DNA from: Candidatus Poribacteria bacterium
Lineage (GTDB): Bacteria > Poribacteria > WGA-4E > WGA-3G
Reading direction: 5' to 3'
Assembly: GCA_022821495.1 (NCBI GenBank)
Contig: JAJEDN010000025.1
Location: 1-64,000 of the forward strand
DNA: 64,000 nucleotides
A model generated the notes under the pieces. It had not been told where the DNA came from. It searched no databases and saw only the letters and a list, made by a program, of their open reading frames with translations. This document shows positions 38,979 through 41,421 of the stretch, piece by piece. How positions within the stretch are numbered: the stretch's first letter is position 1; each line of letters starts with the position of its first letter. A program made the translations under genes and the position numbers.

Positions 38979-39006
38979 TATATACGTACATGGATGCACT
39001 TTCCAA
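38979..39006 (-). promoter_or_regulatory. Promoter of the permease pair
   Basis: On the minus strand TTGGAA (complement of 39001-39006) and TATATA (complement of 38979-38984), spacing 16; leader about 30 nt. Confidence 0.4.
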
Positions 39007-39066
39007 GCGTTTAGCAGAATGATGGTATCTTGGCATAATTTGCCTTAATTAGGGTTATTTATTGTA

Positions 39067-39095
39067 TTGCCAATTCTATGATGACGTGCTATCCT
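39067..39095 (+). promoter_or_regulatory. Promoter giving a probably leaderless radical SAM mRNA
   Basis: TTGCCA (39067-39072) and TATCCT (39090-39095), spacing 17. Transcription would begin at about 39102-39103, on the ATG itself. There is no ribosome-binding site before that ATG (sequence TATCCTATTTAAC), which agrees with a leaderless message. Confidence 0.5.
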
Positions 39096-39102
39096 ATTTA
39101 AC

Positions 39103-40554
39103 ATGAAAACGGAAACGCTAATCTCCTCAGCGACGCACACACCCGGTGCAATCCTTTTAATCTCCTGCTACGAGCTTGGACACCGACCCGCAGGACTTAC
39201 GCGTCCGCTCCGCGCACTCGAGATAGCAGGATTTACACCTGATACAATTGATATTGCTGTTGAGGCGCTGGATGTTGAAAAAGTCAAACGTGCGCGGTTT
39301 ATTGGGATCTCTGTCCCGATGCATACGGCACTGCGGCTCGGTGTTCATCTTCTACAACGAATTCGAGAGATTAACCCGGATGCCTCTATATGTATGTACG
39401 GACTTTACGCTACGCTCAATGCAGATTATCTGCTCTCGCACGGTGTCGATTTCTGCCTTCCGTCTTCAGTAACCCCCCAACCCCCCTTATCAGGGGGGCA
39501 GGATAGGGACACATCAATGCAACTTGTCGGGTTGGTGCAATCTTTTGTGGACGGAAAGCAGGTTGAGACGCAGAAGACTGGTTTTCGTACTGCGAAACTG
39601 CCGCCGTTAGAGACATACGCCCAGTTTGAAGACAACGGCGAGGTGCGGACTGTCGGTTATACAGAGACGACACACGGATGCAAGCATCTCTGCACACACT
39701 GTCCTATTCCGCCTGTTTACAAAGGTAAGTTTTTTGCTGTGAATAGGGAGACAGTGCTGAATGAGATTGAGGAACAAGTGGTTGAAGGTGCGACACACAT
39801 AACATTCGGTGATCCAGATTTCCTCAACGGACCGATGCACGGACTCCGCATCCTCCGTGCAATGCACGAAGCATATCCGAATCTGACCTTTGACTTTACA
39901 ACCAAGATTGAACATATTCTTAAACACAGAAAACATTTCCCGGAATTCGCACAGCTCGGATGTCGGTTTATCATCTCTGCTGTGGAATCGCTGAGTGAGA
40001 CGGTCCTAACGATTTTGGAGAAACACCACACACGGGGCGATGTGGAAATAGCACTTGACATTGTTCACGGTGCCGGGATTGCCCTGCGTCCAACATGGGT
40101 GCCATTTACGCCATGGACAACTTTAGACGACTATCTTGAGATTCTGCGGTTTGTTGATACGCATCACCTTATCTATCACGTAGATCCAGTGCAGTATGCT
40201 GTTCGATTATTAATTCCACCGGGTTCGTATCTACTTAATCGTCCTGAGACAATAGCACTTTCACTTACACTTGACGAAACCTCTTTCAGTTACACATGGA
40301 CACACCCGGACGCACGAATGGATGAACTTCACAAAACGGTCAGTGCCCTCGTTGAAAACGACGCTCGAGCCGGTGTAAACACACTGGAGACCTTTTATCG
40401 GATATGGACACTTGCTGCGGATATACACGGTAGCAGGCACACGCCGTTGGATTTCCATAGCAAAGACGCACATCAACCCGCACCACGGATTACCGAAGCA
40501 TGGTTCTGCTGAGCGGAACCCACCGAAGGGCAGTTTGCCCCGATACACGTTTAA
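39103..40554 (+). CDS. CUAEP-tail radical SAM selenoprotein (in-frame UGA at 40510)
   Basis: A radical SAM protein that appears to contain selenocysteine. The frame runs 469 residues to TGC-TGA (TGA 40510-40512) and then continues GCG-GAA-CCC, so the product reads Cys-Sec470-Ala-Glu-Pro and 11 more residues to TAA at 40552-40554 (483 residues). CUAEP/CCAEP tails define a known radical SAM family. Order: cobalamin-binding-like Rossmann domain (residues 15-118, ILLISCYELGHRPAGLTRPL; no DxHxxG motif), linker with a repeat-derived insert (123-133), radical SAM core with C193-x3-C197-x2-C200 in HGCKHLCTHCPIP, and FGDPDFLNG as in B12-type enzymes. Substrate unknown. A DUF169 gene follows 53 nt later. 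Read conventionally the gene would look complete but lack its tail. Confidence 0.85.
39469..39502. repeat. CCCCCTTATCAGGGGG repeat inserted in the radical SAM gene
   Basis: GTAACCCCCCAACCCCCCTT followed by ATCAGGGGGGCA matches the complement of 57537-57568 at most positions. It adds VTPQPPLSGGQ in frame in the linker between the B12-like and radical SAM domains. Confidence 0.7.
40510..40541 (+). promoter_or_regulatory. Candidate bacterial SECIS element
   Basis: Directly after the UGA (40510-40512) the mRNA can form GGGCA (40528-40532), loop GUU (40533-40535), UGCCC (40536-40540). The apical loop begins with G and lies 20 nt after the UGA, inside the 16-37 nt window known for bacterial SECIS elements. 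The hairpin is within the coding extension and would be bound by SelB. Stem length (5 bp) is short, so this part is less certain than the CUAEP tail. Confidence 0.6.
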
Positions 40555-40607
40555 AGTGACCTTCATACCGAACGTCATCTAACCGAACCGTAAGGAAAAT
40601 TAAAAAT

Positions 40608-41294
40608 ATGTCAGAACAAATTCAACAATTACTCAATTTAGAAATCGCTCCTGTCGCGCTAACTTTTCATGATGCGAAACCGGAGGGTGTTTCTCGGATA
40701 GAAAAAGCTGAAGCCTCGGGTTGCACCTATTGGCGACGTGCAGCAGCAGGCAAAACCTTCTATACCGAAGCCGCTGATCATTACAACTGTCCCATCGGAT
40801 GTTATACACACAACATTGAATTGCCAGACGCACAGATGGAGGAACTCGAAAACACGCTTGGATTGATGGCGGAACTCGGCTACATCGCTATGGAAGAAGT
40901 CCCCGGCATTCCACGACAGGAAAAATCGTTCAAGAATGCTGTCTATTCCCCGTTAGCAGATGCGACTGACACACCTAATGTTGTCATCATTTCTGGCACG
41001 CCGAGACAGATGATGCTCTTGATGGAAGCCGCGACCGCTGCCGGCATCGGTAGTGAGAACAGCGTTATGGGGCGACCGACGTGTGCCGTTGTCCCGGCTG
41101 TCATACAAGGCGGACGGAGTGTGAGCAGCTTGGGATGTATCGGCAACCGCGTCTATACTGCACTCTCCGACGACGACTTCTACTTCGCCTTCCCCGGTGA
41201 ACATATTAACGCGCTTGTTGAAAAGTTAGAGACGATTGTGAACGCGAATCAGGCATTAGCGGAATATCATCAGCAACGTCAAACGGAGATTTAA
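40608..41294 (+). CDS. DUF169 domain protein
   Basis: A 228-residue DUF169 protein of unknown biochemical role; ATG 40608 with AAGGAAA upstream. Typical opening IQQLLNLEIAPVALTFHDAK. Conserved cysteines suggest a metal or cofactor site: C39 in SGCTYWRRAAAGKTFYT, C61 and C65 in YNCPIGCYTHNI, and later RPTCAVVPAV and SLGCIGNRVY. It is the direct downstream neighbour of the CUAEP radical SAM selenoprotein and is likely its functional partner (inference from position). Confidence 0.88.
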   Translation: MSEQIQQLLNLEIAPVALTFHDAKPEGVSRIEKAEASGCTYWRRAAAGKTFYTEAADHYNCPIGCYTHNIELPDAQMEELENTLGLMAELGYIAMEEVPGIPRQEKSFKNAVYSPLADATDTPNVVIISGTPRQMMLLMEAATAAGIGSENSVMGRPTCAVVPAVIQGGRSVSSLGCIGNRVYTALSDDDFYFAFPGEHINALVEKLETIVNANQALAEYHQQRQTEI

Positions 41295-41316
41295 ACTTAC
41301 CTTGCGGAGAAACAAC

Positions 41317-41421
41317 GTGGACTGGGCATTGAATAGTTTCTACCAAAGAGTTGAAGAAACACCCAAGCAATACGCAGAAATACCCAAGCAAAAACACCCT
41401 TCCACTTCGTTTCAGGCTTAG
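41317..41421 (+). CDS. Possible 34-residue peptide
   Basis: GTG at 41317 with CGGAGAAACAAC before it opens a 34-residue frame (MDWALNSFYQRVEETPKQYA ...) ending at 41421, between the DUF169 and SDR genes. The DNA contains a near-direct duplication (ACACCCAAGCAATACGCAGA / ATACCCAAGCAAAAACACCC). No family; could be spacer by chance. Confidence 0.25.
   Translation: MDWALNSFYQRVEETPKQYAEIPKQKHPSTSFQA

Follow-up and report, generated by a model that had tools for sequence, protein, structure and literature searches.

In bacterial selenoprotein synthesis, SelB carrying Sec-tRNA is recruited by the loop of the SECIS element and selenocysteine (Sec) is delivered to a UGA codon. According to published criteria, bacterial SECIS (bSECIS) elements have a stem of 4–16 bp and a loop of 3–9 nt at 16–37 nt from the UGA, with a G within the first two loop positions, usually a G or U next to it, and a minimum free energy (MFE) of −7.5 kcal/mol or lower (PMC13188914). 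The NCBIfam family NF040546 comprises radical SAM (seleno)proteins with a CUAEP or CCAEP tail; a literature search on this family did not return any paper, and a look-up by accession prefix found no entry for it in the table of a 2026 review. ArsL (NF040542), which represents a sister radical SAM family, transfers the 3-amino-3-carboxypropyl group of SAM to As(III) in arsinothricin biosynthesis (PMC8552651).

The DNA stretch analysed here (the window; 64,000 nucleotides) corresponds to contig C19 of a draft genome of 5.37 Mb, with Candidatus Poribacteria as its near relatives. From the comparison of homologous sequences we are highly confident that a hairpin at 40528–40540 is the SECIS element belonging to a gene for a radical SAM selenoprotein in this genome.

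The radical SAM gene and its tail

Plain ORF calling ends the radical SAM gene at a UGA codon (ORF 39103–40512), whereas readthrough of this codon yields UAEPTEGQFAPIHV followed by TAA at 40552–40554. The resulting protein comprises 483 residues, with a predicted Sec at codon 470, and ends in WFC-U-AEPTEGQFAPIHV; its match in the whole genome spans one TGA. NF040546 was matched over the full length with 618.7 bits (cut-off 500) and WFCUAEP contains the tail that defines this family, with Sec encoded by UGA and no notable difference from it. The radical SAM domain (PF04055) was found with 43.5 bits, and a B12-binding domain gave a weak match below the cut-off. Among homologues, the tail around the UGA reads WFC[U/C]AEP and is conserved apart from the U/C position. 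As the window protein is a member of NF040546, the assignment of its UGA to Sec was already catalogued, and the hairpin was the open point. The similarity to ArsL amounts to 308.6 bits over 402 residues, which is under the cut-off of 450 and leaves the protein outside of that family. Moreover, the tail motif of ArsL is RCCLKC, in contrast to CUAEP in the window protein.

A DUF169 gene (PF02596, COG2043) is located closely 3′ of the radical SAM gene, at 40608–41294. Such a gene was also observed near the radical SAM homologue in most Poribacteria loci and in three Planctomycetes loci (L033, L059, L060). This neighbourhood across loci suggests a shared pathway.

Table 1. Features at the 3′ end of the radical SAM gene, and stem sequences found in Sec forms of four phyla.
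Feature	Position	Strand	Basis
Radical SAM (seleno)protein gene, CUAEP-tail family	39103..40554	+	translation with TGA as U; NF040546 and PF04055 matches
Second hairpin GGUUCUGC-UGA-GCGGAACC, UGA as triloop, function uncertain	40502..40520	+	folding and RNAalifold
In-frame UGA, read as selenocysteine (predicted)	40510..40512	+	aligns with UGA in 63 tails, UGC/UGU in 15
Coding extension AEPTEGQFAPIHV and stop TAA	40513..40554	+	tail past UGA conserved across phyla
Bacterial SECIS upper hairpin (predicted): GGGC 40528–40531, loop AGUUU 40532–40536, GCCC 40537–40540	40528..40540	+	RNAalifold, covariation in Sec tails
Poribacteria stem: GGGC(AGUUU)GCCC			
Rokubacteria stems: GAGGGCC(AGUU)GGCCCUC, GAGGGCC(AGUUC)GGCCCUC			
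Planctomycetes stems: GGGUC(AGUUG)GACCC, GAGACUC(AGUUC)GAGUCUC			
Chloroflexi stem: CUGGUC(AGUUU)GACCAG			

The hairpin downstream of the UGA

The original prediction had described a GGGCA-GUU-UGCCC hairpin which starts 16 nt after the UGA and lies within the short coding extension. The three segments are indeed present (40528–40532, 40533–40535 and 40536–40540), the stem begins with the 16th nucleotide past the UGA, and it is situated inside the 14-codon extension that ends with the TAA. Folding recovered the stem in all four stretches of RNA that were folded. The proposed size of 5 bp with a loop of 3 nt, however, has to be revised. Several UGA-bearing homologues have TTC or TTG codons at the fifth pair (A40532-U40536), which is thereby disrupted. 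Since this pair is not conserved, support is limited to a stem of 4 bp with the 5-nt loop AGUUU. The apical loop does contain the expected G, but at its second position instead of at its start. Judged by the homologous tails, the conserved form of the hairpin is GGGC(AGUUU)GCCC.

In this form the hairpin agrees with all published bSECIS criteria. Stem (4 bp) and loop (5 nt) are within the limits, the loop A-G-U-U-U has its G at an accepted position, and the distance from the UGA to the loop, for which the bacterial range had been anticipated, is 19 nt. The MFE of 40510–40554, from UGA to TAA, is −10.3 kcal/mol, and covariation of the stem and its tie to the UGA, which are also expected of a bSECIS element, were both found. 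Of the 63 UGA-bearing tails, 57 lie within all of the published limits. In four others the region folds slightly more weakly than −7.5 kcal/mol, and in the remaining two the stem is broken, with fewer than 4 bp. Compared with the bSECIS consensus, the window stem is at the short limit, and the loop of the radical SAM family, AGUU(N), is nearly invariant.

Taken on its own, the hairpin does not stand out from shuffled sequence (z between −0.8 and −1.8; 11 to 42 of 200 shuffles fold equally well), and 7% of synonymous recodings of the window peptide have at least four anchored pairs. The single sequence alone thus proves nothing, and the significance of the hairpin comes from the comparison with its homologues.

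Conservation and covariation in homologues

A scan of genome contigs gave 80 loci with 78 complete tails, including that of the window, of which 63 carry the UGA (Sec forms) and 15 a Cys codon (Cys forms). The Sec forms come from Poribacteria, Rokubacteria, Planctomycetes and Chloroflexi. Both the stem sequence and the amino acids encoded by it vary by clade among them, with the pairing being kept around the AGUU loop (Table 1). Most stems of Poribacteria measure 4 bp, compared with 5 to 8 bp for the other phyla. RNAalifold placed a common 4-bp core stem in 45 Sec tails with 5-nt loops and no stem downstream in the 15 Cys tails.

For a 7-pair version of the stem, the Sec forms exhibited 25 double-changed cells versus 6.9 in shuffles, and a covariation score of 0.288 versus 0.115, which was not reached by any of 500 shuffles. 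Covariation was lower in slid controls than at the true stem position, and Cys forms showed no excess over shuffles. A synonymous-codon null gave a similar picture. The mean stem was 4.06 in Poribacteria (null 1.43, sd 0.18) and 6.37 in the other Sec forms (null 2.28), neither value being reached in 500 recodings, whereas 123 of 500 reached the stem of the Cys forms, which is hence not above the null. Loss of the stem or absence of covariation despite a retained UGA had been named in advance as the outcome that would speak against a SECIS element; the stem is kept in 61 of the 63 UGA-bearing homologues, with many compensatory changes.

A stem of at least four pairs is present in 61/63 Sec forms versus 1/15 Cys forms, for which the Fisher p of 1.7e-12 is a naive value, as the sequences are related. 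The tree needs four changes between Sec and Cys, and only 3 to 4 such changes are independent of each other, which is not enough for a sign test. Three independent contrasts could be drawn on branches with good support; in nearly all of their pairings the stem accompanies Sec, but three contrasts do not suffice for significance. The loop G, which is a synonymous third codon base, is present in 63/63 Sec forms, and so is the codon CAG; CAA has a share of 49% in Poribacteria genes and was found in 5/15 Cys forms at the loop-G codon.

Both UGA forms with a broken stem belong to Poribacteria. In L027:2942-3001 a CGG codon replaces the usual GGG, and in L073:4306-4365 a GCG codon stands in place of GCC or GCT. 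These damaged stems could be draft errors or weak alleles. The only Cys form with a 4-bp stem at the SECIS position is L078:4279-4338, whose genome contains a match to tRNA-Sec of 66 bits and no SelB over the cut-off. Its stem is possibly a relic of a change from Sec to Cys, or due to chance.

Selenocysteine machinery

The genome to which the window belongs encodes SelB (343.8 bits) adjoining tRNA-Sec (77.5 bits) on contig C115, and SelA (607.9 bits) on contig C23. A search of this draft (94.7% complete) for SelD, using both the family model and the protein of a relative, yielded nothing over the cut-off and only a weak, paralogue-like match. SelD was present in 19 of 20 relatives and missing from one (G016). 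An assembly gap appears to be the likeliest reason for its absence from the draft. Across the sampled genomes, SelB exceeded the cut-off in 17/17 Sec-form genomes versus 5/16 Cys-form genomes.

Each of the 19 SelD genes (L091-L109) has one in-frame TGA, SelD of these relatives being a selenoprotein gene in its own right. Short hairpins, for instance GCUC(CGGGG)GAGC and CAGUCC(AGUU)GGACUG, come after the TGA at a comparable distance. These resemble the window hairpin in their short stem, small G-containing loop and spacing, a comparison made partly by reading the sequences by eye as the automatic picks were off-register in several rows. Two genomes have the AGUU loop in common with the window; the stem sequences differ, and in the nearest genus most loops read CGGGN.

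Alternative readings

A second hairpin of 8 bp, which holds the UGA in its loop, is located just upstream of the SECIS stem (Table 1), and the working signal might consist of both. We consider such a two-part signal unlikely. Both hairpins are placed by RNAalifold, and the one pair that is free to vary, at the third base of the Ala codon following the UGA (Ala+1), has a purine, which keeps the U-R pair, in 59/63 Sec versus 6/15 Cys forms (p 1.4e-5, a naive value). In Poribacteria, GCC or GCU accounts for 41% of the Ala codons in the radical SAM gene and never occurs at Ala+1. However, the codons for WFC-U-AEP leave no choice in seven of the eight pairs, no pair column shows a change on both sides in any homologue, and the hairpin is mostly present in Cys forms too. 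Furthermore, a link of the Ala+1 purine to Sec was not supported by the independent Sec/Cys contrasts, and the SelD tails of some relatives have GCC or GCT at Ala+1. Because seven pairs are coding-forced and the contrasts are uninformative, the UGA-triloop hairpin is not supported as a proven element and was rejected as such. A further-reaching reading for this family seems unlikely, namely that the UGA is presented in the triloop of its own 8-bp hairpin with the SECIS hairpin right behind it, that both hairpins are needed, and that the protein motif WFC-U-AEP owes part of its conservation to an RNA structure which its codons form round the Sec codon.

The UGA at 40510 could also be an ordinary stop, with the protein ending in ...EAWFC and the hairpin being a palindrome that arose by chance between this gene and the following one. 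The closure of the plain ORF at this codon and the unremarkable fold of the single sequence relative to shuffles are compatible with this idea, yet several phyla share a conserved frame past the UGA (AEPTxGQ), the homologues with Cys are translated straight through this position, and the stem covaries. An ordinary stop is thus very improbable. A chance hairpin, possible from one sequence, was ruled out by the synonymous-codon null and the covariation in homologues. Finally, a role of the G+C-rich hairpin at the gene end as an intrinsic terminator, or as some other regulatory RNA without connection to selenium, is barely conceivable, as no U-run follows it, a terminator scan predicts none there, an Rfam scan of 39000–41400 gave no match at the hairpin, and the stem tracks the UGA rather than the gene as such.

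Discussion

The assignment as a SECIS element is supported by a covarying stem with a nearly invariant AGUU loop, which lies at a constant distance behind the UGA, is kept together with it and is missing from 14 of the 15 Cys homologues, by the agreement with bSECIS criteria, and by the presence of SelA, SelB and tRNA-Sec in the host. The hairpin very probably directs insertion of Sec near the end of the radical SAM enzyme. It adds a real, if minimal, case to a known class of bacterial signals, within a selenoprotein family that had been catalogued before. SelB carrying Sec-tRNA would bind the loop through the G and U of AGUUU once the ribosome arrives at the UGA; Sec would be inserted at position 470, and translation would run for 13 more codons to the TAA. 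ArsL, the enzyme of the sister family, suggests by analogy that the Cys-Sec pair of the tail might help to bind or act on the substrate of the enzyme; the tail may serve to hold a soft element or contribute to catalysis.

Plain ORF calling truncates the protein at the UGA, and a likely functional Sec is thereby lost. Covariation, with the Cys homologues as a natural control, confirms a short SECIS element in the CUAEP-tail selenoprotein family, and the natural stem variants from 4 bp to 8 bp are ready material on the minimal size of a working SECIS element.
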